From an uncultured Hyphomicrobiales bacterium (GTDB lineage: Bacteria; Pseudomonadota; Alphaproteobacteria; Rhizobiales; Devosiaceae): 45,429 nt of DNA. Of the stretch, positions 27,882 to 45,429 are shown piece by piece (the first letter of the stretch is position 1; the number at the start of each line of letters is the position of its first letter). Under the pieces are notes generated by a model. That model ran no database searches. It worked only from the letters and a program-made list of their open reading frames with translations, and was not told where the DNA came from. A program made the position numbers and the translations under genes. The stretch covers positions 1 to 45,429 of the forward strand of contig CAIMLX010000246.1 of the NCBI GenBank assembly GCA_903842455.1. The letters run 5' to 3'.

Positions 27882-28028
27882 ACCCCTCATCCGCCCTTCG
27901 GGCACCTTCTCCCACAAGGGGAGAAGGCGAAGGAGCCACACGCTCGGGCGGCTCGAGAGGCGACTAAGGGTGCCACATCGCCTTCTCCCCTTGTGGGAGA
28001 AGGTGGCCGGAGGCCGGATGAGGGGTGC
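27882..28028. repeat. RIME-type palindromic intergenic repeat, copy 1
   Basis: The left arm, beginning ACCCCTCATCCGCC, and the right arm, ending GGCCGGATGAGGGGTG, frame a core where CACCTTCTCCCACAAGGG continues into GAGAAGGCGA and is repeated inverted on the right side without mismatch. Both the core and the CCTCATCC ends occur again at 45165-45285. This is the pattern of Rhizobiales intergenic mosaic elements. It separates hydA from the ABC ATPase gene and would fold into a large cruciform or RNA hairpin. Confidence 0.85.
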
Positions 28029-33868: not shown

Positions 33869-34375
33869 TTAACCCTGTTGCGCTTCCGCATCAGCGGGCA
33901 GCGGCAGCATCCCGCGATAGATCCCCGGGCTCGACTTGGGGATCAGCATCGCATCGAGGCGCTTTTGATAGAACTCCACCGGCCCCGGGTCGCCGATCAC
34001 CGCGTAGGCATAACCGGCCTCCCGCATGCCGCGCAGTGTCGCGAACAGCAGCGCCTCGCCCACCCCCTGCCCGCGCACGCTCTCGTCGACACCGGTCGGC
34101 CCGAAGAACCCCCGCGCGCTGGCGTCATGGCAGGCAAAGCCGAGCAGCCTCCCGTCCTTGATCGCCAGCCAGATGGTGGTCGGGAACTGGCTCAGCGCCA
34201 TCTCGGCCTCGCCGCCCCAGTAGGGGTTGAAGCGTTCGAGGATCCAGTCCCGCACCGCATAGCGCTCGGGCGGCAGGGCGCGGCGGATGGTGATGCCGGC
34301 CGCCGCCATCCGCGCATCGGCCGGTGTCTCCGGCAGGTCGTACAGCCTTACGAGCAAGTCGCCAGTTTTGGCCAT
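33869..34375 (-). CDS. GNAT-family N-acetyltransferase
   Basis: A 168-residue acetyl-CoA-dependent acetyltransferase. The GNAT core shows TTIWLAIKDGRLLGFACHD, the acetyl-CoA pyrophosphate-binding motif DESVRGQGVGEALLFATL (R/Q-x-x-G-x-G/A) and AYAVIGDPGPVEFYQKRL. Its start overlaps the hexosaminidase stop by one base (TGATG), so the two are made together; an amino-sugar substrate is an attractive guess from that linkage but is not shown by the sequence. Confidence 0.85.
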   Translation of the reverse strand: MAKTGDLLVRLYDLPETPADARMAAAGITIRRALPPERYAVRDWILERFNPYWGGEAEMALSQFPTTIWLAIKDGRLLGFACHDASARGFFGPTGVDESVRGQGVGEALLFATLRGMREAGYAYAVIGDPGPVEFYQKRLDAMLIPKSSPGIYRGMLPLPADAEAQQG

Positions 34376-36309
34376 CAGTTGTCCTCGTAATTGCCGTACA
34401 TGTTGGGCATTAGCCCCACCAGCGCGGTGAAGCGGGCGAAGTCGCGGTTCGCGCTCCAGCCGGTCTCGGCGATGGCGGAGAGCCGGGGGAAGACCAGCCG
34501 GTCGAACACGGCACGATCGGTCATCGGCTCGTTCCAGATGCAGCCCTGGATGCCCATGAGATGCGCCCTCTCCGCCTCGCTCCACCCGGCGGCCGGCTCG
34601 AACCGGTAGGTGTTCTCGAGCGACGAGAAGCCGGCCCACGCCGCGCCGGATTCGGCGAATTCCTCCGAATGCGCCATGTCCATGTAGTAAGCCTGCGCCG
34701 GGGCGACGACGACGTCGTAGCCCTCGCCGGCGAGTTTCTGGCTGATCGCAGTATCCTTCCACCCCACGAGGTAGCTGCCCGCCTTGTCGATGCCGCCGCC
34801 CTGCGATGCTTCCTCCCAGGCGCCGGTGATCTTGCCCTTTTCGGCGAGGAACGCCTGCACGCGCTGCAGGAAATGCGCCTGCAGCGGCGCGGTGCCGTCG
34901 CTGCCAAGCCGGGCGCCGAGGGCGCGGGCCGCCGGCGACGTCTCCCACGCATCGTGCGGCACCTCATCGGCACCCACGTGGAAATAGCGCGACGGGAACA
35001 GGTCCACCATCTCGCCGAAGATCGTCTCGACAACGCCGTAGGTCGCCTCGACTCCCGGGTTCAGGCAGTTGTTGGGAAAGCCCTGCACCGAGAAATAGAG
35101 CCCGTTCTCGCCCGGATCGCGCAGTTGCGGCACCGCCTGCAGCAAGGCGTAGCAGTGCCCGGGCACGTCGATCTCGGGCACCACGTCGACCCCGAACAAC
35201 TCCGCAACCGCCACGATCCGCCGGATATCGGCCTTCGCGTAGTAGCCCCCGGCCCGCTCCGGCCCGGAGCCAAGCAGCGGCGGAACAGCAAGGCCGTAGC
35301 CGTTCCACGCCGCCTTCCGCGTCAGCTCGGGGTAAGCGTCGATCTCGACGCGCCAAGCCTCATCGTCACTCAGGTGCCAGTGCAGCACGTTGAGCTTGTT
35401 CCAGGCGAGCAGCGCCACGAAGCGCGTCACGTCGGCGCTCGAGTAGAACCGCCGCGCCACATCGAGGTGGCAGCCGCGCCAGCCATAGCTCGGCGCATCC
35501 TCGATCCGGCCGGCCGTCGGAAAGCTGAATTCGAGCAGCTTGCCGCGCGCCCCGCGCAGCATCTGACCCAGCGTGATGAGGCCGTAGAAGAAGCCGGTCC
35601 GGGTCTCTGCCGTCACCCGCGCGCCGTCGGGCGCAAAGTCGATGGCATAACCTTCCTTGCCGCCGCTGCCGGGCACCAGTTCGACCGGATAGCCGCCCTC
35701 GCGCTCCGGCCGGCAGAGCCCTTCGCCGGGGAACAGGATCGACGACAGCTGCTCGAAACCCTCGACTGCGGCCTCGGCATCGGTCCCGCCCGCACCCTTT
35801 GGCGCCAGTCCCGACGGCGCCGTCCGGCGACCTTTTACAGCCACCGACAGCGGCCACGGAATGATCGACACCGGTACCGGCGGCTGGGCCGGCACCGGGA
35901 ATCGCACGGTGCCGCGCTTCGGCGGCGTATCCATCGTGTAGAGGGTCGTCGGCACGGTCCGAAGGGAACGTGTCGAGCCATCCGCGAGGATCAGGAAGCC
36001 GGTCGTCGCGCCATCGGTCCAGTGCCGGATGGGGTGGGCCAGATTGTCGAAATCCACCACCCAGTCGGCGCCCGGCGGTAGCGTGAAGCCCGGCGGCGGG
36101 GCGATCTCGACGAAGTTGGAAAGCTGGGTGACGAAGCTGCCATTGGTCACCGAGGATTCAAGCCCGATCCGGCCCGGTCCCGAAAAGCCCAGCCGGAAGT
36201 CGCTCAGCATCGCGGTGCCCCGGTTGGCGAGGGTCAGCCGGTAGATCGCCTCGCCGCCCGGAAACAGCTCGCTCGAAAGCGTGACACCCTCATACCATTC
36301 CGAGACCAT
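34375..36309 (-). CDS. Cytoplasmic beta-N-acetylhexosaminidase (GH20)
   Basis: A 644-residue glycoside hydrolase family 20 enzyme that removes terminal beta-linked GlcNAc or GalNAc. An N-terminal beta-rich region (1-150, with LTLANRGTAMLSDFRLGF) and a GH20b-like domain precede the catalytic barrel: YGWRGCHLDVARRFY, WNKLNVLHWHLSDDEAWR, VVPEIDVPGHCYALL and the catalytic Asp-Glu in FHVGADEVPHD near residue 445. GIQGCIWNEPM closes the barrel. No signal peptide is present, so it acts inside the cell on imported chitobiose or wall fragments. The ATG 36309 has GGGAG about 11 bases upstream. Confidence 0.92.
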   Translation of the reverse strand: MVSEWYEGVTLSSELFPGGEAIYRLTLANRGTAMLSDFRLGFSGPGRIGLESSVTNGSFVTQLSNFVEIAPPPGFTLPPGADWVVDFDNLAHPIRHWTDGATTGFLILADGSTRSLRTVPTTLYTMDTPPKRGTVRFPVPAQPPVPVSIIPWPLSVAVKGRRTAPSGLAPKGAGGTDAEAAVEGFEQLSSILFPGEGLCRPEREGGYPVELVPGSGGKEGYAIDFAPDGARVTAETRTGFFYGLITLGQMLRGARGKLLEFSFPTAGRIEDAPSYGWRGCHLDVARRFYSSADVTRFVALLAWNKLNVLHWHLSDDEAWRVEIDAYPELTRKAAWNGYGLAVPPLLGSGPERAGGYYAKADIRRIVAVAELFGVDVVPEIDVPGHCYALLQAVPQLRDPGENGLYFSVQGFPNNCLNPGVEATYGVVETIFGEMVDLFPSRYFHVGADEVPHDAWETSPAARALGARLGSDGTAPLQAHFLQRVQAFLAEKGKITGAWEEASQGGGIDKAGSYLVGWKDTAISQKLAGEGYDVVVAPAQAYYMDMAHSEEFAESGAAWAGFSSLENTYRFEPAAGWSEAERAHLMGIQGCIWNEPMTDRAVFDRLVFPRLSAIAETGWSANRDFARFTALVGLMPNMYGNYEDN

Positions 36310-36339
36310 TGTAATACCACTCCCTTGCCGCGACGACTC

Positions 36340-37401
36340 CTAGTCGGTTCGGCCGCGGCTCGCAACGGGAAGGGTACCCCTGATCTCGTCGCCCGAGATC
36401 AGCGTGACCTCGTCGAACAGGTTGGACACCACGCAGACATGGTTCGGGATGATGCGCAGGCGTTCGCCGACGCGCGGCCAGTCGGACGCGACCGGCATCT
36501 CGATCACCCCGTGTTCTTCGGACAGCGTTTTCACGACAAGCTCCGTGCCCATCACCAACCCATGCCCGAGAGACAGGTCGCCGGCGACCGGATCGTAGGC
36601 CAGCGACTTCGAGCCGGCATCGATCACCACGCGGGTAGCGGTCGGCCGGCTCACCACGGTGGCGAGCACCGTCAGGGCGCAGTCGTCGAAGCTCGCCACC
36701 TTGTCGCGCACCTGCATGCGATCGTAGTAGATATAGGTGCCAGGCCGCCGCTCGGTCACCGGGCCGCCGCTGGGGGCCCACATGTCGGGGCTGTTGCCGG
36801 CGGTGATCGTCGATACGGCGATGCCGGCTTGCTTGAACAGTTCCAGCGCGGTTTCGAACCACGCATTCGCCTCGGCCACGCCATGCTTGGGCGGATAGGT
36901 CATCAGTCCCCCAAAACGCAGGCCGGGGGCCATTTCGATCTGCCGCGCCAGCGCCAGCGCCTGCGCCTGCGTCTGCACCCCGCAACGCCCTGCCCCGGTG
37001 TCGCACTCGACGAGCACGGTGAGTGGCTTGCCGCCGGTGAAGGTGCGGGCATAACCGGCAATCGTGTCGGGGCTGTCGGCAGTGACGGCCAGCGTGATCC
37101 GCTCGTTCAATGCCTTCAGCCGCGCCAGTTTCTTGTCGCCGACGATGTTGTAGGGCAGGAAGATGTCGTCGATGCCGCCATCGGCCATCACCTCGGCCTC
37201 ACCCAGCTTCTGCACCGTGATGCCCTTGGCGCCCAGCTCGATCTGACGCCGGGCGAACTGCGGTAGCTTGTGCGTCTTGGTGTGGGGGCGGAGCGCGTAG
37301 CCTTCCGTGTCGGCATGGGCCTGGGCGCGCTTGAGGTTGGCCTCGACCCGGTCGATGTCGATGAGGATGGTGGGGGTGTCGAGGTCGGCAATGGTCGGCA
37401 T
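36340..37401 (-). CDS. D-threonine aldolase / D-serine dehydratase-like PLP enzyme
   Basis: A 353-residue fold-type III PLP enzyme (alanine-racemase-like N-terminal barrel with a metal-binding C-terminal domain). Motifs: DLDTPTILIDIDRVEANL, PLP Lys in LRPHTKTHKLP near residue 40, ECDTGAGRCGV, GGLMTYPPKHG, TITAGNSPDMW, and the metal-site RIIPNHVCVVSNL. It should cleave D-threonine-type beta-hydroxy-D-amino acids or dehydrate D-serine-like substrates; the family cannot be split further by eye. GGGAGCC precedes the ATG at 37401. The stop is 30 bases upstream of the hexosaminidase gene. Confidence 0.85.
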   Translation of the reverse strand: MPTIADLDTPTILIDIDRVEANLKRAQAHADTEGYALRPHTKTHKLPQFARRQIELGAKGITVQKLGEAEVMADGGIDDIFLPYNIVGDKKLARLKALNERITLAVTADSPDTIAGYARTFTGGKPLTVLVECDTGAGRCGVQTQAQALALARQIEMAPGLRFGGLMTYPPKHGVAEANAWFETALELFKQAGIAVSTITAGNSPDMWAPSGGPVTERRPGTYIYYDRMQVRDKVASFDDCALTVLATVVSRPTATRVVIDAGSKSLAYDPVAGDLSLGHGLVMGTELVVKTLSEEHGVIEMPVASDWPRVGERLRIIPNHVCVVSNLFDEVTLISGDEIRGTLPVASRGRTD

Positions 37402-37459
37402 TTGAGGCTCCCTGAAGCGACGGTAATTGGACCCGCCGCAGTCGGGAATGCAAGCCGAC

Positions 37460-37744
37460 TTAAGGCTTCCAGCGCTTCTGCGCGCTGGCGCGCAGCACGA
37501 AGCCGATGATCTCCGCTGCCGCCTCGTAGAGTTCGATGGGGATCGGCTCGTCGAGGTTGACGCCGGCCAGCGCCTCGGCCAGTGGCGCATTGGCGTCGAT
37601 ATGCACATCGGCCTCGGTGGCGATCTCGACGATGCGTCGCGCCACCTCGCCGCGCCCCTTGGCGATGACGCGCGGCGCGTCCCGGGTGCCGCGCTCGTAT
37701 TCCAGCGCCACGGCGAGATTGACGTCCTTGGGAGGCTCACTCAT
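37460..37744 (-). CDS. FlhB C-terminal-domain-like protein (FhlB/YlqH type)
   Basis: A 94-residue protein homologous to the cytoplasmic tail of the flagellar/type III export switch FlhB: LAVALEYERGTRDAPRVIAK, GRGEVARRIVEIA, PLAEALAGVNLDEPIP and ELYEAAAEIIGFV. It lacks the membrane part and the self-cleaving NPTH motif; the residues at that place read PPKDVNLAVAL. Such stand-alone FlhB-C proteins (for example YlqH in Bacillus) can partly replace the FlhB tail. Its ATG overlaps the stop of the FliK-like gene by 4 bases, so the pair is co-expressed, and FliK is the known partner of the FlhB tail. Confidence 0.85.
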   Translation of the reverse strand: MSEPPKDVNLAVALEYERGTRDAPRVIAKGRGEVARRIVEIATEADVHIDANAPLAEALAGVNLDEPIPIELYEAAAEIIGFVLRASAQKRWKP

Positions 37745-39744
37745 CGGGCGTGGTCCAGCAACTGGCCCGGAGCCGCGGACGTGGAGCGCGGCGTGCCGTG
37801 GCGGACGCGCAGCGCGGTCAGTTCCAGCCCGTGGCGCTGGATCGCCGAACCAAGCTCGGGGAGCATCGCATCGAGGGCATCGGCGATCTCGGGGTCGGCG
37901 GCCCAGATCGAGATACTCGCGGAGCGGCCCAGCATGGCGATGTCGGCGCCGACCTCGCCGGTCTCGGAAAAGTTCATGGCGAAACGCATGCGCCACCCCC
38001 GCCCGCGCTGCTCCCGCTTGTGCTTGCCGTCGCGCTCGACCAGCAGTTGCAGGATACCGGTCTGGGTCCCCAGCAGCATGGGGATCTCGAAGCGGAGTTC
38101 GTTGCGCGGTGTGGCCGCGTCGGGCCGAGCGTCGATTGCCGGCTGGGAGGCCGATTGCAGCAGCTTTAGCCGCGACAGCGCCGCATCGGTCTGACCCAGC
38201 AGGGTTTGCACTTCGCTGCCGGCGTCGGCAGCCCCACCGGGGACCGCTGGCTGCGGAGGCGGCGCCCTTGGTGGCTCGCCCCGGATGGGAGGAGCCGGCC
38301 GCTCGACGGGCGCCACCGGGGCCGTTCCGTCGCTGCCCAGCAGGCCGACGAGGCCCGAGCGAAGCGCCAACAGTGCTGCCCTGTTGTCGCCCGGGGTCTG
38401 GCGGGTCAGCGGGGCCAGCAGCACGCCGGCCCGCAGCACCGCAGCTTCAAGCGCCTTGCCGTCCGGTACGGCGCGGTTGAGGTCGACCCGGTTGGCAAGC
38501 AGCCGCTGTGCCACCTCCAGCAGCGGTCGTGGCAGTGTCGGCGCAGCAGCGGTGACGATAGCCGCCAGCCGCGCCAGCAGCGGCGCGGTGCTGTCCTGAC
38601 GGGCCGCCGCCTGCGCCGGATCGGCGAGGTTCAGCGGCTGCGGCACGGCCCGTGACGGAACAATCGGCGCGGCTGCGAGCGGCAGTTGCCGGGCCACGAC
38701 GGACGGTTCGACCTGCGGCACCGGCACCGGGTAGGGAGAGGCGCGGGTCGGCAGCGCCTGCGGCGGCGCCGCGTTCAACGGGGCGGAAAGGGGCGGAGCG
38801 GGCTGCGGCTGCGCGGCGGGCGTTCCTGATGCCGCAGGCACGGCAGCTGCGGCCGGTGTCGCCGCGACGGCGACCGGCGCAACGGCAGCGGGCGAGGCGG
38901 GTATCGAGGCAGCTGGCTGTACGCCGGGAAGCGGCGCAGCTGCCGCGGTTCCGGCGCCCGTCCCCGGGGGCACAATCGGCAGTGGCACCTGTGCGGCAGG
39001 CTGTGCTGGCCCAGACTGCACCTGCGACAGGTTTGCCGGGGTGACTGGCATCGCCAGCGGAGCGGACGCGCCGGCTGCCGATGCGGGCTGGAGCGGCAGC
39101 GCTCCTCCTTGGTACGTCGGCGGCGCCGTGGCGGGCTGGGGTGGTGGCGACGCCGGTGCAGGAGCACTGCTCGTCGCACCCATTGGCTGGGGCGAAGGCA
39201 CCGGTGAAGCGGCCGGCGGCGTTGACGCAGCCGGTGTCGTGCCGACAGCAGGGCCGGCGGAGGTCCGAACCCCCGGCTGCACCGGCAATTGCGGCTGGGG
39301 CATTTGCGGCGCGTCCGCAGGTGTCGGAGATGCGACCGGCTGGGCAACGCGGGCCTGCACCTGTCCCTGCATTTGCCCCTGCGCCTGCATCAGCGATGTG
39401 GTGGGGGCCGGCAGCGGCAGGGGCTGGGCAACCTGCGGCGCAGCGTTTGGCATCGACACCGTCACGGCGGGCGTACCCTGCGGCGTGGTCGTCACCCTGA
39501 TGGTCACGGCGGCACCGGTGGGCAGGGGTGTGGCGAGCTTCAGCACGAAGCTCTCATTGCCGGCGGCCAGTTGGGTCAGCCCGGCTGCAAGCTGTCCGGT
39601 GACCTTCGCATCGATGGTCTGCCCGAGCTTCAGCATCAGTGAATCGATGCTGGCGCGGGCCTGCTTCACCACGGCCATTGCCGGGTCGGCGGCCGGCTGC
39701 TGGTTGCTGCTCAGCTGGGCAATGAGGCTGGCGAGGTCGGACAT
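37741..39744 (-). CDS. fliK: FliK-like flagellar hook-length control protein
   Basis: A 667-residue protein. The first 130 residues contain MSDLASLIAQLSSNQQPAA and an ordered block with FVLKLATPLPTGAAVTIRV; residues about 130-380 are a disordered Pro/Ala/Gln-rich tract expected for a molecular ruler; residues about 500-650 form the FliK C-terminal Flg_hook domain with LRFEIPMLLGTQTGILQLLV, FAMNFSETGEVGADIAML and LRVRHGTPRS. It should measure hook length and switch FlhB substrate specificity. ATG 39744 is used; GTG 39750 is possible. No other flagellar gene is visible apart from the following FlhB-C-like gene. Confidence 0.82.
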   Translation of the reverse strand: MSDLASLIAQLSSNQQPAADPAMAVVKQARASIDSLMLKLGQTIDAKVTGQLAAGLTQLAAGNESFVLKLATPLPTGAAVTIRVTTTPQGTPAVTVSMPNAAPQVAQPLPLPAPTTSLMQAQGQMQGQVQARVAQPVASPTPADAPQMPQPQLPVQPGVRTSAGPAVGTTPAASTPPAASPVPSPQPMGATSSAPAPASPPPQPATAPPTYQGGALPLQPASAAGASAPLAMPVTPANLSQVQSGPAQPAAQVPLPIVPPGTGAGTAAAAPLPGVQPAASIPASPAAVAPVAVAATPAAAAVPAASGTPAAQPQPAPPLSAPLNAAPPQALPTRASPYPVPVPQVEPSVVARQLPLAAAPIVPSRAVPQPLNLADPAQAAARQDSTAPLLARLAAIVTAAAPTLPRPLLEVAQRLLANRVDLNRAVPDGKALEAAVLRAGVLLAPLTRQTPGDNRAALLALRSGLVGLLGSDGTAPVAPVERPAPPIRGEPPRAPPPQPAVPGGAADAGSEVQTLLGQTDAALSRLKLLQSASQPAIDARPDAATPRNELRFEIPMLLGTQTGILQLLVERDGKHKREQRGRGWRMRFAMNFSETGEVGADIAMLGRSASISIWAADPEIADALDAMLPELGSAIQRHGLELTALRVRHGTPRSTSAAPGQLLDHAR

Positions 39745-39806
39745 GCGCACACAATGCGCCGCGCCGGTTAACGGATGTTAACTGTCGTCCGAACTCCGGG
39801 AAATGG

Positions 39807-40628
39807 TCAGCTGCCAAGGATGCGGCGCGCCCGCGCCAGCACCGGCGCGTCGACCATCCGTCCATCCAGACTGAACGCCGCATCGCTGGTGGGGGCGGCG
39901 GCGAGAACCCGTGCGGCCCAGTCGCGCTCCGCCTCGGTGGGGGCAAAGCCGTCATTGAGGATGGCCACGCCCGAGGGGTGAATGCAGGTGGCGCCATCGA
40001 AGCCGTGCGCCTTGGCCTCGCGGGCAGCCTCTGCCAGCACTTCGAGATCGGAGTAGTCGGCAATCGACTGCAGCAGCCCGAAGCTCAGCTTGCCTTCGGC
40101 CTTGGCCGCGTAGTGGACAGTGAGCTTGGGGAACCGCAGTACATCGGGGGTCGGCGTGCCACCGGTGACGGCAGTAAAATCCTCGGCCCCGAAGCTCAGC
40201 CCCATCACCCGCTGCACCCGGGCGATGGCCCGCGCGTCGAGCATTGCCGCCGGGTCTTCGATCATCGCGACGAAAGGGATTGGTTTACGGCCGAGCCGCG
40301 CCTCCTCGGCGCGGAGGGTTCCCGCCAGCGCCTCCAGCGCGTTGGGATCGCCGGCCTTCGGGATGAACAGGCCTCCTGCACCGGCTCGAACGGCCGCGAT
40401 CGCGTCGTCACGCTGGCGGGCGCCGGCATTGATGCGGACGAAGGCGGCAGCGTCGTTGCGAGTAACCAAGGCAATTGTCGCCGCGAGGTTGTCGCGGGCG
40501 GCAGTCTTGTCGGCTTCCGGCACAGCATCCTCGAGGTCGAGGATGATGGCGTCGGCGCCGCGTTCATGCGCCTTGCCGATAAACCGCTCCGAGTGCGCCG
40601 GGACGTAGAGAAGCGATCGCAGGGTCAT
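39807..40628 (-). CDS. CitE-like CoA ester lyase (HpcH/HpaI family)
   Basis: A 273-residue TIM-barrel enzyme: LRSLLYVPAHSERFIGKAHE, AIILDLEDAVPEADK (metal-binding Asp/Glu), FVRINAGARQRDD, GGLFIPKAGDP, PFVAMIEDPAAMLDAR (Glu) and GLSFGAEDFTAVTGG, closing GATCIHPSGVAILNDGF. The group includes citrate lyase beta, malyl-CoA/methylmalyl-CoA and citramalyl-CoA lyases, which cleave beta-hydroxyacyl-CoA to acetyl-CoA or propionyl-CoA plus a keto acid. Its ATG overlaps the stop of the CoA-transferase gene by 4 bases. Together they make a CoA activation and cleavage pair; the acid is unknown. Confidence 0.88.
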   Translation of the reverse strand: MTLRSLLYVPAHSERFIGKAHERGADAIILDLEDAVPEADKTAARDNLAATIALVTRNDAAAFVRINAGARQRDDAIAAVRAGAGGLFIPKAGDPNALEALAGTLRAEEARLGRKPIPFVAMIEDPAAMLDARAIARVQRVMGLSFGAEDFTAVTGGTPTPDVLRFPKLTVHYAAKAEGKLSFGLLQSIADYSDLEVLAEAAREAKAHGFDGATCIHPSGVAILNDGFAPTEAERDWAARVLAAAPTSDAAFSLDGRMVDAPVLARARRILGS

Positions 40629-41806
40629 GGGCGGACACTATCAGGATCGATCCCTGCTTCGGCCATCACTTCTGCGGTGTGCTCGCCCAGTTCCGGGGCC
40701 GGGCGCCTGAAGGTTCCAGGGGTGTCGCTGAGCCGCGGCAGGATGTTGTGCATCGGAAGCGATCCGAACTGCTTGTCTTCGACATCGACAATGATGCCGC
40801 GGTCAACGAAATGCCGGTCGGCGGCGATGTCGGCGATCGAGTAGATCGGGCCAACCGTCGCGCCCGCCTCCCGCATGATCGACAACGCCTCGTCATGGGT
40901 ATGTCGACCGAACCATTCCGCTACCGCGGCATCGACGAGGTCGCGGTGCCTCACGCGGTCGGAGTTGGTCGCAAAGCGCGGATCACTGTTCATCTCCGGC
41001 TTGCCGATCACCTCGAACACGCGCTTCGCCACCTGCGGAGTCGAGCCGGACAGCGCCACGTACCGACCGTCGGCGCAGCGATAGACGTTGCGCGGCGAGG
41101 CGGTGTTCGACGCAGAGCCCGAGCGCTCCTTGACCTTGCCGGTCACCTTGTAGATCGCCGCCTCCGGTCCGAGGACGGAGTACATCGGCTCGAGCAGGCT
41201 GAGGTCGATCACCTGCCCCCGCGCCTTGCCGCGAAACCGGGCGAACAGCGCCGTCACCGTGGCGTTGGCTCCGTACACCCCGGCGATCATGTCGGCCAGC
41301 GCCAGCGGCGGCAGCACCGGCTCGCGATCGGGGAAGCCGGTGCGGTAGGCAAAGCCGCTCATCCCCTCGACGATGGTGCCGAAGCCGGGGAACTGGGCAT
41401 AGGGCCCGGTCTGGCCGAAGCCGGAGATGCGGACGACGATCAGGTCCGGATTGCCCTCGAGCAGGGTTTCGGGCGCGAGCCCCATCTCCTCGAGCGTCCC
41501 CGGCCGGAAATTCTCGATGAACACGTCGGCCGTCTTCAGCAACGCCTTCAGCGCCGCCATGTGCGCCGCCTGGCGCAGGTTGAGCATCACCGAGCGCTTG
41601 TTGCGGCCGTAGGTCTTCCAGTAGAGCGAATGCCCGTCGTCGCACCACTCCCGCAGCGGATCGCCCTGCGGCGGCTCGATCTTGATCACGTCGGCGCCGA
41701 AATCGGCCAGCTGGAGGCTGAGCATGTTGCCCGCCACCAGCCGGCTCAGGTCGATGACACGGATGCCATCGAGCGGCCCCGTCGCGCCGGGATCGAAGCG
41801 GATCAC
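40625..41806 (-). CDS. CaiB/BaiF-type (family III) CoA-transferase
   Basis: A 393-residue CoA-transferase that moves CoA between carboxylic acids. Motifs: GIRVIDLSRLVAGNMLSLQL, LADFGADVIKIEPPQGDPLR, YGRNKRSVMLNLR, VFIENFRPGTLEEMGL and the active-site Asp in PPLALADMIAGVYGANATV near residue 170. C-terminal RHTHDEALSIMREAGATVGP is typical. The start is GTG at 41806, whose GTGA overlaps the stop of the ADP-ribosylglycohydrolase gene; any longer frame would lie wholly inside that gene. It is followed by the CitE-like gene, also with a 4-base overlap. Confidence 0.9.
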   Translation of the reverse strand: MIRFDPGATGPLDGIRVIDLSRLVAGNMLSLQLADFGADVIKIEPPQGDPLREWCDDGHSLYWKTYGRNKRSVMLNLRQAAHMAALKALLKTADVFIENFRPGTLEEMGLAPETLLEGNPDLIVVRISGFGQTGPYAQFPGFGTIVEGMSGFAYRTGFPDREPVLPPLALADMIAGVYGANATVTALFARFRGKARGQVIDLSLLEPMYSVLGPEAAIYKVTGKVKERSGSASNTASPRNVYRCADGRYVALSGSTPQVAKRVFEVIGKPEMNSDPRFATNSDRVRHRDLVDAAVAEWFGRHTHDEALSIMREAGATVGPIYSIADIAADRHFVDRGIIVDVEDKQFGSLPMHNILPRLSDTPGTFRRPAPELGEHTAEVMAEAGIDPDSVRP

Positions 41807-43938
41807 AGCTCGGTCACTTCCAGCCGCTGCACCGTCATCCGCCCCGCCGACGCCATGCGAAGCCCGGCCTGCCCGTAGCGGAACGCGCCGTCGGTGGCGG
41901 CGAGCAGTTGCTGGCCGTTGATGGACAGGCTCAGCGCCTCGCCCCTTGCGCTCAGCGACACCACCAGCGGCGTGCCTGGCACGGCATTGTAGGGCACGCG
42001 CGCCAGCACGGTCGCCCCATGGTCCTGCCTGACGATCACCGCCTCGCCGTGCTCGATGCCCGCCGCGTAGAACCGCGATGTCCCCTGCACCCGCGCTGCG
42101 ACGAGGTGCGACTTGCCGGCGAGCGGGGTCAGGTCCGCCGTCACCATCACATCGCGGAGATAGGCGTTGCCGGTCCACGCATCGGCATCCTCGGCGGTGT
42201 GGGCATGGATGACGCCGTCCTGCAGGCTCCAGTGCCCCCGGTTCCAGGTGAAGCGGGTGATGCCGCCCCATTCGGGCTTCTCGACCCGCGGGTCGATCGC
42301 CACCCTGCCCTTCCCCGAGACCGAGAACTCCGAGAGGAACAGCCGGCCGAGGAACTTCAGCCGCCCGAAATACTCGACCAGCACGCCGATCTCGTCGATC
42401 GCCTCGTCGCCGTCGGGGATGGTGAACGCGTAGTCCTGCCAGCCCTCCGACGAGGGCACATGCCAGGCGCCGGTCTCGACGATCTGCTGGCTGATGGCGC
42501 GGCGTACATAGGGAGCGACGCGCAGGTTGCCGTCGCCATTCCAGGGGTCGAGCTGCAGCTTGAATTTCACCGTCTGGCCGGCGTCCGCCAAAGGCGTGAA
42601 CATCGGGCGGTAGCGCTCGTCGTCGAAATCCGACCGCCGGTAAAACGGCTTCCAGAACACGCGACCGGCCGAGTCTCCGACCGCGCCTTCGCCGGTGCCG
42701 CGCTCGAGCCGGTCGAGCAGCACTTCGAGCGCACCACGGGAGTTCGGTCCCTGCCGGTCCGTCGCGGCTTTCACGGCGATCTGGTTGAAGGGCTCGGTGC
42801 GGAAACCGTGGGTTGCGCCCGGCGCGTCGAAATCGAAGCGCACGCCGCGCCGCTCGAAATCCTCCACCCATTGCGCCGGCGGCTCCTTGCCGTCGAGCCG
42901 CAGCGCCAGCACCGTCAACTCCCGCGCAAACGACGGCGCGTCCACCACGTTCAGCGTGCCGATGACGCCCGAGGCGACGACGAAGTCGTTGATCGGCTTG
43001 CGGTACTTGTCCCAGCTCGGCTGGACGCCCTGGAACGTGCCGACGATGGCGCAGGAATTGCCGGCGTTGCAGTCGGTGTCCCAGCCGGCCATCGTGGCGA
43101 TCTCGGCGGTGCGGGTCAGTTCGCCCTCGCCGTAGAGGATCGCCATCACGGTCACGCCGGCATTGGGGATGATGTGGCAGACGCCGGGATAGCGGTCATA
43201 GCCCCACTGAGCGCCCAGCATGTCGCGGCAGGCCCGCCAGTCGGCCGGATTGGCCTTGTGAAAGTCGATCACCGCGCGCGACACGCGGGCATAGGTCGAG
43301 TTCGGATCGATCTGTGCCAGCCCGGTCGCGACGATCTCGTCGATGGATGTCGCCACGAAGGCCTGGGCGATGGCGGCGGCGCAGAAGCGTGCGCCGTTCA
43401 GCCCATCCCCATCATGCGCCACCGAGGCGGCCATGGCCGACATCTGCGCGGCGCGCTTCGGGTTGCCGGGGTTCACCCAGCCCCAGCTGTCGATGAAGAT
43501 CTGCCCGCCGATCTGCTCGGCGACGGTGCTGCCGTTGGTAGCGATGGAGCCCGATGCCGGGGCTTCCATCCCAGCCTTCAGGTTCTTGTAGGCCGTGTGC
43601 TCGGTCGAATTGCCGAAGCCACCCCACCAGTACATGCCATGTTCCTCGGCGGCGTAGTTCAGCCAGGTCCGGCCCACATCGGCAGCCGTCGCCTGCAGCC
43701 CGTAGTCGCGGAGCGCCCGGATGAAATAGACCGGCCCGTTGGTGTCGTCATCAGCGGCGAAGTTCTTGAAATCGCGCAGGTACTGCGTCACCTCGCCATA
43801 GGTGTCGCGGATGCGCTCATAGCTCCAGATGGTGGGCTCGACCGGCGCGCCGAGGCGGACGCCGATGGCCTTGCCGAGAAAGCCGGAATAGATGCGGTCG
43901 AAGATTTCGGTATGGCTGGGCATGGGGTCCGGGATCAC
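41803..43938 (-). CDS. ADP-ribosylglycohydrolase-family protein with C-terminal beta-sandwich
   Basis: A 711-residue two-part protein. Residues 1 to about 370 are an ADP-ribosylglycohydrolase (DraG-like) domain: GFLGKAIGVRLGAPVE, the metal site FAADDDTNGPVYFIRAL near residue 63, MYWWGGFGNSTEH, HIIPNAGVTVMAILYGEGE and GWDTDCNAGNSCAIVG (DTD metal motif). Residues about 470-711 form a beta-rich region resembling carbohydrate-binding/concanavalin-like modules, with two sandwich repeats ending SINGQQLLAATDGAFRYGQA. No signal peptide. The start is GTG 43938 (overlapping the previous stop) or ATG 43923. It probably hydrolyses a ribosyl or related N/O-glycosidic bond rather than protein ADP-ribose. 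Confidence 0.85.
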   Translation of the reverse strand: MIPDPMPSHTEIFDRIYSGFLGKAIGVRLGAPVEPTIWSYERIRDTYGEVTQYLRDFKNFAADDDTNGPVYFIRALRDYGLQATAADVGRTWLNYAAEEHGMYWWGGFGNSTEHTAYKNLKAGMEAPASGSIATNGSTVAEQIGGQIFIDSWGWVNPGNPKRAAQMSAMAASVAHDGDGLNGARFCAAAIAQAFVATSIDEIVATGLAQIDPNSTYARVSRAVIDFHKANPADWRACRDMLGAQWGYDRYPGVCHIIPNAGVTVMAILYGEGELTRTAEIATMAGWDTDCNAGNSCAIVGTFQGVQPSWDKYRKPINDFVVASGVIGTLNVVDAPSFARELTVLALRLDGKEPPAQWVEDFERRGVRFDFDAPGATHGFRTEPFNQIAVKAATDRQGPNSRGALEVLLDRLERGTGEGAVGDSAGRVFWKPFYRRSDFDDERYRPMFTPLADAGQTVKFKLQLDPWNGDGNLRVAPYVRRAISQQIVETGAWHVPSSEGWQDYAFTIPDGDEAIDEIGVLVEYFGRLKFLGRLFLSEFSVSGKGRVAIDPRVEKPEWGGITRFTWNRGHWSLQDGVIHAHTAEDADAWTGNAYLRDVMVTADLTPLAGKSHLVAARVQGTSRFYAAGIEHGEAVIVRQDHGATVLARVPYNAVPGTPLVVSLSARGEALSLSINGQQLLAATDGAFRYGQAGLRMASAGRMTVQRLEVTEL

Positions 43939-45140
43939 AGATTGACGACGCTGGCGGTGAGAAGGGGGGCGAGAAGCGCCTCGCGGGCGTGCTCGGCGGC
44001 GAGGCGGGCTTCGCGGTCGGCGAGGAGAATGCGGGTTGCAGTCCCGGTGAACCGGTCGGCCGAGGCGGTAAGGTCGAAGCGGTTGGCGCTATCGAGAACC
44101 AGCCGGTCGGCTTCGTCGATCACTGCCTCGCCATGCAGTGCACCGAGGATGGCGCCGGCCATCACGCCGATCGAATCGGTGTCGCGGCCCGAGTTGATGC
44201 CGTCCTCGATGGACCTGCGGAAATCGCCGCCGTTGAACAGCGCGAAGCCCAGCGCCAGCGGCAGTTCCTCGATCGAGCCGAGCCGCGAGGGCTGGTAGGC
44301 GGCCGTCGCCACGCCGGCCTTGGCGGCCGAGTGGTTCACGTCGTCGCCCATCGGCGAATAGGCTGCGATGATGCGGTGGAACTGCGCCACCACTTCGTCA
44401 TAGCCCGAGCCCTGCTGGCGCAGCACTGTCGCCGCCTCGGCGATCTCGGCAATGGCGGCGCGCGTGCCGTCCTTGGCGTAGTGCAGCGCGGTTGCGACGA
44501 TGGCGTCGATCGTCGTGCCCGGCACGAATGCAGCGGCAACCGCCGCAGCGAAGACCCCGGCTGCCTCGAGCCCGTAGCTCTGCTGGTGGCCCTCGGCGAA
44601 GGCGATGGCCTCGTCATAGGCGGCCTTGGGGTCGGCGGCGTTCACCACGCCGACCGGGGCGATGTACATGGCGGCGCCGCAGTTCACCATGTTGCCGATG
44701 CCGCCCTGGCGCGGGTCGCAGCCGCTCAGCTGGTGGCGCTGGAAAATCCACTTCTCGGGGTAGAACAGGCGGTCGATCAGGTTGGCCTCGCGCTGCATCT
44801 CGGGGATCCAGCGCGGCGTCCAGGCGATCTGGCGCACCATGCCCCCGGCCATGTCCCAGGCATCGAGATGGCGGCCGGTATCAGCATAGATGTCCATCAG
44901 CACCAGCGTCATCAGCGTGTCGTCGGTGACGATGCCGTTGCCGCGAACGCGATGGTTCCGCGCTTCGGGCGGCAGGTCCATCTTGTGCCAGCGCGCCGCG
45001 AGCGAGGTGACGCGCCCATAGCGCGCCTTGATCTCGGCGGCGCTGAGCTTTTCGACCGGTGCGCCCAGCGCGTCGCCCAGCGCAATGCCGTGCAGCATGG
45101 CGCGGACGCGGCTGGTGAAGTTGTTTTCAGTGCTCGTCAC
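43935..45140 (-). CDS. ADP-ribosylglycohydrolase-family protein
   Basis: A 401-residue paralogue of the next gene without the beta-sandwich part. Metal motifs: HGIALGDALGAPVEKL, IVTDDTLMTLVLMDIYADTG near residue 70, MVNCGAAMYIAPVG, and SGRDTDSIGVMAGAILGAL (DTD) near 325. These residues fit a working di-Mg hydrolase of N- or O-glycosidic bonds to ribose. The GTG at 45140 is chosen because an AAGG and a GAG lie just upstream and because longer frames run into the intergenic repeat. Its stop overlaps the start of the second ADP-ribosylglycohydrolase by 4 bases, tying both into one unit. Confidence 0.83.
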   Translation of the reverse strand: MTSTENNFTSRVRAMLHGIALGDALGAPVEKLSAAEIKARYGRVTSLAARWHKMDLPPEARNHRVRGNGIVTDDTLMTLVLMDIYADTGRHLDAWDMAGGMVRQIAWTPRWIPEMQREANLIDRLFYPEKWIFQRHQLSGCDPRQGGIGNMVNCGAAMYIAPVGVVNAADPKAAYDEAIAFAEGHQQSYGLEAAGVFAAAVAAAFVPGTTIDAIVATALHYAKDGTRAAIAEIAEAATVLRQQGSGYDEVVAQFHRIIAAYSPMGDDVNHSAAKAGVATAAYQPSRLGSIEELPLALGFALFNGGDFRRSIEDGINSGRDTDSIGVMAGAILGALHGEAVIDEADRLVLDSANRFDLTASADRFTGTATRILLADREARLAAEHAREALLAPLLTASVVNL

Positions 45141-45164
45141 GGTCTCAACCTTGTGCGCGTTAGG

Positions 45165-45285
45165 ACCCCTCATCCGCCTGCCGGCACCTTCTCCCACAAG
45201 GGGAGAAGGGAACCTGCTGAGAGGCCCGGTGTTCATCGCCTTCTCCCCTTGTGGGAGAAGGTGGCCGAAGGCCGGATGAGGGGTG
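45165..45285. repeat. RIME-type palindromic intergenic repeat, copy 2
   Basis: The same element as at 27882-28028, here 121 bases. CACCTTCTCCCACAAGGG plus GAGAAGG on the left is repeated inverted on the right (CCTTCTCCCCTTGTGGGAG), and the outer arms are ACCCCTCATCCGCC and GCCGGATGAGGGGTG. It separates the solute-binding protein gene from the ADP-ribosylglycohydrolase gene, 25 bases upstream of the GTG, so its RNA would fold in the 5' leader of that gene. Confidence 0.85.
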
Positions 45286-45314
45286 CTGTCCACACACCCG
45301 GCCTTCGAGTTCAA

Positions 45315-45429
45315 TCAGCTACCCAGCACGGTCCGGGCATACTCGTGCAACCGGTCGCCGCCGGCGGCTGTCCATTCGGCCACGAAGGCGTCCCACTGGT
45401 CCATCGGGGCTTCGCCCGAGATGAACTTG
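45315..45429 (-). CDS. C-terminus of a family-1 sugar ABC solute-binding protein (partial)
   Basis: A minus-strand frame enters from the right edge and stops at TGA 45317-45315. The visible 37 residues include KFISGEAPMDQWDAFVAEWT and then a Gly-rich turn and RLHEYARTVLGS. This is the typical end of extracellular solute-binding proteins of sugar transporters (the W-D-x-[FY]-V segment, then a final helix). It is oriented like the ADP-ribosylglycohydrolase genes downstream, so the transporter may supply their substrate. Confidence 0.7.
   Translation of the reverse strand, partial: KFISGEAPMDQWDAFVAEWTAAGGDRLHEYARTVLGS

Follow-up and report, generated by a model that had tools for sequence, protein, structure and literature searches.

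Enzymes of the ADP-ribosylglycohydrolase (ARH) fold are known for the cleavage of ribosyl bonds, and the described members ARH3, ARH1 and DraG are ADP-ribosyl hydrolases with a two-part metal-binding motif. Here we analyze a locus in which two proteins with this fold and with candidate motifs of this type, one of them a variant, are encoded next to a coenzyme A (CoA)-transferase of the CaiB type and a CoA lyase of the CitE/HpcH type, at one end of contig CAIMLX010000246.1 from an uncultured bacterium of the order Hyphomicrobiales (family Devosiaceae, assembly GCA_903842455.1); the complete stretch of 45,429 nucleotides that was analyzed is referred to as the window. In contrast to the known ADP-ribosyl hydrolases, the two ARH proteins of the window, hereinafter ARH1 and ARH2, belong to a sugar-uptake operon. 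With moderate confidence, we propose that this operon, under the control of LacI, serves the catabolism of a glycoside in which citramalate, or a closely related acid, is joined to ribose or to a furanose resembling it.

Several described systems share parts of this layout. In the methylaspartate route of glutamate fermentation (Mal, mesaconase, citramalate lyase), glutamate is converted via mesaconate to (S)-citramalate, which is then cleaved either by citramalate lyase or by a CoA-transferase together with citramalyl-CoA lyase, according to the available parts of the source (PMC4682846). The three interchangeable acid-cleaving modules discussed below are also found close to the genes of that route; the window operon, however, encodes an importer and glycosidases instead, and neither the mutase nor the ammonia-lyase nor mesaconase was seen in it. 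The degradation of itaconate and mesaconate by a CoA-transferase and the lyase Ccl/RipC resembles the window in that CoA activation precedes a CitE-type lyase, but no hydratase was seen in the window operon, and its CitE remains below the RipC/Ccl cut-off (NF038242; 105.5 versus 375 bits). A published staphylococcal cluster (Staphylococcus epidermidis SERP2216-2218, in staphylococcal cassette chromosome (SCC) elements) combines an ARH gene with genes for a ribokinase and a transporter, as here; in the available portions of the respective papers (PMC3637587, PMC3900703, PMC3321955), it differs by a nucleobase-type permease and a single ARH, with no acid module named and no function shown. Among the matches listed in our literature search, which covered few subscription journals and no preprints, neither an ARH/citramalate-lyase operon nor any riboside of citramalate was described, and no paper paired an ARH with CaiB/HpcH or dealt with DUF4387. 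The individual enzyme families and acid modules have been described before; their combination and the substrate it implies appear to be new.

Conservation of the gene set in other genomes had been chosen in advance as the test of the original prediction, which proposed a pathway from the window alone; when this test was run, it did not refute the prediction, as the set recurs within Hyphomicrobiales and also, the acid module being exchanged, among Bacillota and Spirochaetota. Each of the 16 orthologous stretches (L042-L057) taken from a search of the bacterial family encodes LacI, two permeases, the substrate-binding protein (SBP), ARH1, ARH2, CaiB and CitE, and the same gene set is present on annotated plasmids of Sinorhizobium and Ensifer. 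Within the bacterial family, ARH2 was detected in 64 of the 136 genomes (E-value 1e-30, a count that includes distant paralogs). When a single genome was scanned for each species, at least 576 ARH2 relatives were obtained, of which the best 80 loci were kept and laid out by tblastn over up to 10 kb on either side of ARH2. Of these loci, 74 encode the SBP and 73 both permeases; an ARH1-type gene is present in 54, a gene for a smaller ARH (ARHx) is present in 28, and at least one of these two in 77. The core of the operon is the importer and the two ARHs. An acid-cleaving module is encoded in 70 of the 80 loci, whereas none of the 19 loci of a sister ARH2 family (32-35% identity to ARH2) has an acid module, an ARH1 or a ribokinase; in this control set, several loci are truncated at contig ends, and almost all come from the window's own bacterial family. 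For the acid module, the difference corresponds to a Fisher p of 2e-13, with the caveat that the loci are related by descent and not independent. As conservation and control counts indicate, the gene association is more than chance. The sister operons resemble the window type in having a large ARH with a GWDTDC motif and, mostly, permeases and LacI nearby. The sister large ARHs (L058-L061, L231-L243, L039, L041) reside mostly in ABC (ATP-binding cassette) sugar operons, and in L059, L239 and L240 there are two copies on opposite strands.

The acid-cleaving modules are of three kinds, one of which is not homologous to the other two. Among the 80 loci, AtuA (PF07287) with DUF4387 (PF14330; one pair was scanned) is found in 34, CaiB with CitE in 23, CaiB alone in two, CitD/E/F in 10, and CitDEF with CaiB in one. 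In the Clostridiaceae locus L087, citD, citE and citF score above curated cut-offs, citC and a citX-citG fusion are also present, and these cit genes stand beside a ribokinase-ARH2-ARH1 array. The idea that the pathway is defined by CaiB and CitE alone was set aside, as this pair is one of three modules. The view of CaiB and CitE as a part of the pathway, held in the original prediction, fits the comparison, with the qualification that they are only one of three alternatives and are missing in some loci.

The same modules recur next to genes for methylaspartate ammonia-lyase (MAL). With an E-value of 1e-60 or better taken to define true MAL genes, these were detected in 4 of the 32 tested genomes with ARH2 loci, in 14 of 245 and 16 of 198 genomes of the classes to which genomes G151 and G156 belong, respectively, and in 4 of 299 genomes of the window's phylum, 36 MAL loci in total (two genomes appear in two lists). 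An acid module lies near MAL in 29 of the 36 loci, namely AtuA in 19, CitDEF in 6 and CaiB with CitE in 4, and never two of them together; DUF4387 accompanies AtuA in 18 of the 19 cases, the remaining locus being cut by a contig end. The seven loci with no module (L183, L186, L205-L208, L215) include two on short contigs (L186 and L215). The same three modules thus occur in the MAL and the ARH settings, and this comparison, with the CmlAB matches described next, restricts the candidates for the acid to citramalate and similar compounds.

The most common module points in the same direction. The fold of the ARH-linked AtuA protein from the Paenibacillus locus L095 was predicted with a pLDDT (predicted local distance difference test) of 87.3, and the only match of this model at an E-value of 0.001 or less is PDB 9evf (template modeling (TM) score 0.91-0.93, 46% identity), which is entitled 'Citramalate lyase - ADP - pyruvate complex'. 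The L095 sequences match CmlA (E-value 2e-131) and CmlB (E-value 1e-24) of PDB 9erq/9evf in the one pair tested, and Salmonella AtuA matches CmlA over the full length (978 bits). Judging from these sequence matches, ARH-linked AtuA and DUF4387 are homologs of the citramalate lyase CmlAB, so that an acid module of the CmlAB family is present in many related loci, whereas the window has CaiB and CitE instead.

The AtuA and DUF4387 pair is also of interest outside the ARH loci. AtuA (DUF1446) and DUF4387 are encoded next to MAL among the loci L143, L144 and L182-L219. In the plasmid records inspected, the pair is labeled 'acyclic terpene utilization', whereas PDB 9erq and 9evf name it CmlAB. The available parts of the methylaspartate paper leave the DUF1446 protein next to mal without an assigned function and describe the fate of citramalate in enterobacteria as unclear (PMC4682846); AtuA with DUF4387 beside MAL would fill this enterobacterial step. 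A Klebsiella plasmid and a Neorhizobium plasmid (L145, L229) encode the pair with a fumarase, in stretches that carry no annotated methylaspartate genes; mesaconate or citramalate may have another source there.

In the window itself, CaiB passes the PF02515 cut-off (23.3 bits), and its Asp172, at what we take to be the position of the catalytic Asp of the family, is present in all 34 compared sequences; likewise, R65, E124, E149 and D150 of CitE are present in all 47 compared sequences, outgroups being included in both cases. The solved relatives of CitE are CitE-type, CLYBL-type and malyl-CoA lyases; its score with the citrate lyase beta subunit model TIGR01588 is 121.1 bits, against a cut-off of 443.4, and it is more similar to MAL-linked CitE (43% identity) than to citrate lyase CitE (33%). 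CaiB shows 39% identity to a CaiB encoded beside the AtuA and DUF4387 pair in Ochrobactrum. We propose that CaiB is a succinyl-CoA (or similar):citramalate CoA-transferase and, by analogy drawn from the module exchange, that CitE would be a citramalyl-CoA lyase.

The sugar side of the proposal is derived from a kinase, the importer and the ARHs. Ribokinase is encoded in 34 of the 80 loci, all among the 55 non-alphaproteobacterial ones, and lies no further than 6.3 kb from ARH2 (median distance 57 bp). Of five ribokinases scored, three exceed the equivalog cut-off of 299.65 bits (L087, 362.9; L095, 323.8; L117, 301.9), and those of L040 (290.8) and L036 (279.4) just miss it. The presence of ribokinase in these loci supports ribose as the sugar. 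In Deinococcus, the locus contains the importer, ARH, ribokinase and ARH2. The SBP family profile built from relatives has AlgQ1/AlgQ2 as best match, and two permeases adjoin the SBP; the AlgQ-like assignment of the importer is drawn from these relatives, as no more than the tail of the SBP lies in the window. The ligands of AlgQ1 and AlgQ2 are acidic.

Both ARHs pass the curated PF03747 cut-off of 26.2 bits, and both have candidate metal-site motifs, as had been recognized from the window, in the form of TDDT and DTDS in ARH1 and of a variant, DDDT and DTDC, in ARH2. In ARH1, T-D-D and D-x-D-S are conserved in 11 of 11 aligned rows; in ARH2, D-D-D and D-T-D-C are conserved in 44 of 44 rows, 43 of which were found via peptides holding these motifs, and also in all 15 rows fetched without the motif pattern. 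A profile alignment places D63-D64-D65 of ARH2 on T72-D73-D74 of ARH1 and C290 of ARH2 on S323 of ARH1. ARH2 thus differs from the known ADP-ribosyl hydrolases by an Asp for the first Thr and a Cys at the Ser/Thr place, a putative metal-site variant that is constant in the compared rows, and by extra beta-sandwich domains. These domains, which the original prediction had described as an added region on one glycohydrolase and which have no Pfam match beyond the PF03747 region, hold up in a confident fold model of ARH2 (pLDDT 91.4, predicted TM score 0.93). In Foldseek searches, the N-terminal domain is ARH3-like (TM on target 0.64-0.74 among the listed ARH3 chains) and the last C-terminal beta-sandwich is CBM66-like (TM on target 0.74-0.78); the top rows by E-value are large proteins matched via the sandwiches, with poor TM. 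A HMMER profile of ARH2 also matches CBM66 (E-value 1.4e-8). The CBM66 domain of levanase binds terminal fructose (fructofuranose), and by analogy the CBM66-like domain of ARH2 would accommodate a furanose in terminal position. In a few relatives (G007, G013, G022, G062 and G080), ARH2 is split or contains stop codons, which suggests either that some lineages are losing the operon or that the sequences contain errors. The genome of the window also encodes a third ADP-ribosylglycohydrolase, outside the operon (L001, contig C266).

Given the ARH fold and the DraG-like region of ARH1, the two proteins could instead reverse protein ADP-ribosylation, making the operon a regulatory one with DraG-like control. 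ARH1, however, scores 52.3 bits with TIGR02662, the DraG equivalog, far below the cut-off of 337.05, and ARH2 has no match to this model; the score with the Tri1 model is 18.9 bits against a cut-off of 490. Together with the CBM66-like domain on ARH2 and the steady pairing with a sugar importer, these scores make such a role highly improbable, and DraG-like regulation was set aside.

Several observations weigh against a ribose-citramalate glycoside as the substrate. We know of no citramalate riboside. Neither CaiB nor CitE of the window scores above an equivalog cut-off, and CaiB is no closer to MAL-linked CaiB than to its own paralog (31% identity in both comparisons). ARH-linked AtuA proteins form a clade of their own in the tree, with MAL-linked AtuA outside (best hits 48-53%). 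CitF of L087 is 59% identical to citrate lyase of Enterococcus faecium, versus 49-53% to MAL-linked CitF. Genomes G156 and G157 have AtuA at the MAL locus and CitDEF at the ARH locus (G157 also CaiB); in addition, G151 has no module at the MAL locus and AtuA at the ARH locus, and G150 has AtuA at both. Because the ARH-linked modules belong to other lineages than the MAL-linked ones and do not match them in G156 and G157, the two settings may involve different acids or different stereoisomers. On the CitE tree, in which long branches were flagged, the ARH label requires 4 changes, 3 of them forced gains or losses, so that CitE and the ARH operons have met or parted more than once; the CitF tree may reflect a single origin of the ARH-linked rows. 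All trees are quick builds with flagged long branches, and the CaiB tree is weak.

The same data raise the possibility of a pathway of the same kind for another aldol-type hydroxy acid, such as citrate, malate, 3-hydroxy-3-methylglutarate or homocitrate. Such an acid would suit the separate AtuA clade, the grouping of L087 CitF with E. faecium citrate lyase, the L087 CitE score above the citrate-lyase model cut-off (445.1 versus 443.4) and the best NCBIfam match of the window CaiB, which is succinate--glutarate CoA-transferase (272 bits, below the cut-off of 750). It is less compatible with the match of AtuA and DUF4387 to a solved citramalate lyase and with the three-way module exchange, which matches that of the citramalate-forming methylaspartate loci. 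Furthermore, citrate and malate are tricarboxylic acid cycle intermediates, and aerobes need no lyase for either; citrate was set aside on this ground and is kept as a rival because of the resemblance of L087 CitF and CitE to citrate lyase. On the whole, we consider a different acid unlikely. The type of reaction is well supported, and citramalate, as either enantiomer, is the best single candidate for the acid, with a close relative as the alternative.

With respect to the sugar, ribokinase is absent from all 25 alphaproteobacterial loci of the set of 80, the group that includes the window type, the substrates of PfkB-family kinases vary, and levanase CBM66 binds terminal fructose. The ARHs might therefore act on a furanoside of another sugar (apiose, arabinose or fructose), or they might cleave a bond between a citramalate acyl group and a sugar. 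The ribokinases above the equivalog cut-off in three loci, the established activity of ARH-fold enzymes on ribosyl bonds and the published staphylococcal ARH-ribokinase cluster, as far as its description is available, all argue for ribose, and we regard a sugar other than ribose as somewhat unlikely.

Finally, the connection between the sugar and the acid is not universal. Ten of the 80 loci have no acid module, five of them near a contig end (L107, L108, L109, L123 and L129), L097 has the core with no acid module, and some alphaproteobacterial loci keep the core only (L072, L080). The core is likewise found with neither CaiB/CitE nor ribokinase on plasmids of Phyllobacterium (L037) and Nitratireductor (L038), and ribokinase replaces CaiB/CitE in Agrobacterium tumefaciens HAMBI 105 (L036). 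Such loci would be expected if CaiB and CitE served an unrelated acid and the ARHs were hydrolases of sugars or nucleosides of the ordinary kind, with nothing but the operon in common with this pair. This explanation appears quite improbable against the high frequency of the module in the ARH2 loci, its absence from the 19 sister loci and the use of three different modules, one non-homologous to the others.

Under the proposed ribose-citramalate pathway, the AlgQ-like ABC importer, whose protein families are evident and whose ligand is predicted, would take up the glycoside, and ARH1 and ARH2, acting as metal-dependent ARH-fold glycosidases, would remove ribose or a similar furanose. The freed ribose would be passed to ribokinase where the gene is present. 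In the window, CaiB would convert citramalate to its CoA ester, which CitE would cleave to acetyl-CoA and pyruvate; in other loci, CmlAB (AtuA with DUF4387) or CitDEF would split the acid into pyruvate and acetyl-CoA or acetate. The route of import, glycosidic cleavage, CoA transfer and carbon-carbon cleavage that was originally read from the window fits this gene content and gains support from the comparison. We infer the substrate, including the exact glycoside, anomer and linkage, as well as the direction of the pathway and every enzyme activity, from the observed gene content, conservation, module exchange, CmlAB homology and predicted folds.

The features of the operon are listed in Table 1.

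Table 1. Features of the operon at the end of contig CAIMLX010000246.1
Feature	Coordinates	Strand	Remarks
AlgQ-like carbohydrate ABC SBP, C-terminal end	45315..45429	-	gene cut by contig end (= window end)
Palindromic repeat of 22-23 bp, two copies in inverted orientation	45187..45261	.	exact copies 45187-45209 and 45239-45261
ARH1, ADP-ribosylglycohydrolase fold, 401 aa, GTG start	43935..45140	-	PF03747 145.9 bits
ARH2, 711 aa, ARH domain and C-terminal beta-sandwiches	41803..43938	-	PF03747 159.9 bits, residues 19-305
CaiB-type (family III) CoA-transferase, 393 aa	40625..41806	-	PF02515 395.4 bits
CitE/HpcH-type CoA lyase, 273 aa	39807..40628	-	PF03328 109.6 bits

The four genes lie where they had been predicted, all on the minus strand, and the Pfam scores bear out their families. 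The 4-base overlaps that had been claimed throughout are read directly from the sequence for ARH2/CaiB (GTGA) and CaiB/CitE (ATGA). The third one, between ARH1 and ARH2, is uncertain because it requires GTG at 43938 as the ARH2 start, whereas the gap between the two genes is at least 3 bases in 19 of 21 relatives (by heuristic start finding) and alignment with relatives favors ATG at 43923, which may be the true start. The position downstream of a sugar-type binding protein is confirmed as well: the contig ends within the SBP gene, and over its last 37 residues the product shares 84% identity with the SBP of L042, the nearest relative. An SBP ortholog was not found in the window's own genome at an E-value of 1e-30, an empty result that is no proof of absence; the assembly seems to lack the main part of the gene.

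In the window, about 175 bp, including the two-copy palindromic repeat, separate the SBP gene from ARH1, whereas 11 of 21 relatives show an overlap of 4 or 11 bases between these genes. The ATPase gene ugpC, located between ARH2 and CaiB in 8 of 16 relatives, is missing from this slot in the window (positions 40600-43950), so an ATPase encoded elsewhere must serve the importer. The gene is also missing from the ARH2-CaiB slot in some Devosia loci (L062, L063, L073, L075). The palindromic repeat forms a second inverted pair at 27905-28003, giving 4 copies in the window, and has 76 matches in the genome with at most 2 mismatches, compared to none for the reversed control pattern; it is a genome-wide intergenic repeat family. 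Downstream of the CitE-like gene lies an unrelated FliK-like gene, and the minus-strand frames at 33869-39750 match a GNAT acetyltransferase, a GH20 hexosaminidase, a protein of the alanine racemase/D-serine dehydratase type, the C-terminal part of an FlhB family protein, and FliK.

A broader, more tentative possibility is that citramalate ribosides constitute an unrecognized class of natural compounds, sufficiently common for dedicated operons to be maintained in Alphaproteobacteria, Bacillota and Spirochaetota, and that the ARH fold has been recruited into a family of glycosidases for small-molecule catabolism, as an enzyme pair of which one member has a module for furanose binding and a changed metal site. 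The proposed pathway, which names a particular acid, sugar and set of enzymes, would assign a metabolic function to a large group of genes for which 'ADP-ribosylglycohydrolase' is at present an annotation by fold only. It would also imply that soil and gut bacteria have access to a sugar-acid that is as yet undescribed, and would link three different citramalate-cleaving systems via one pathway.

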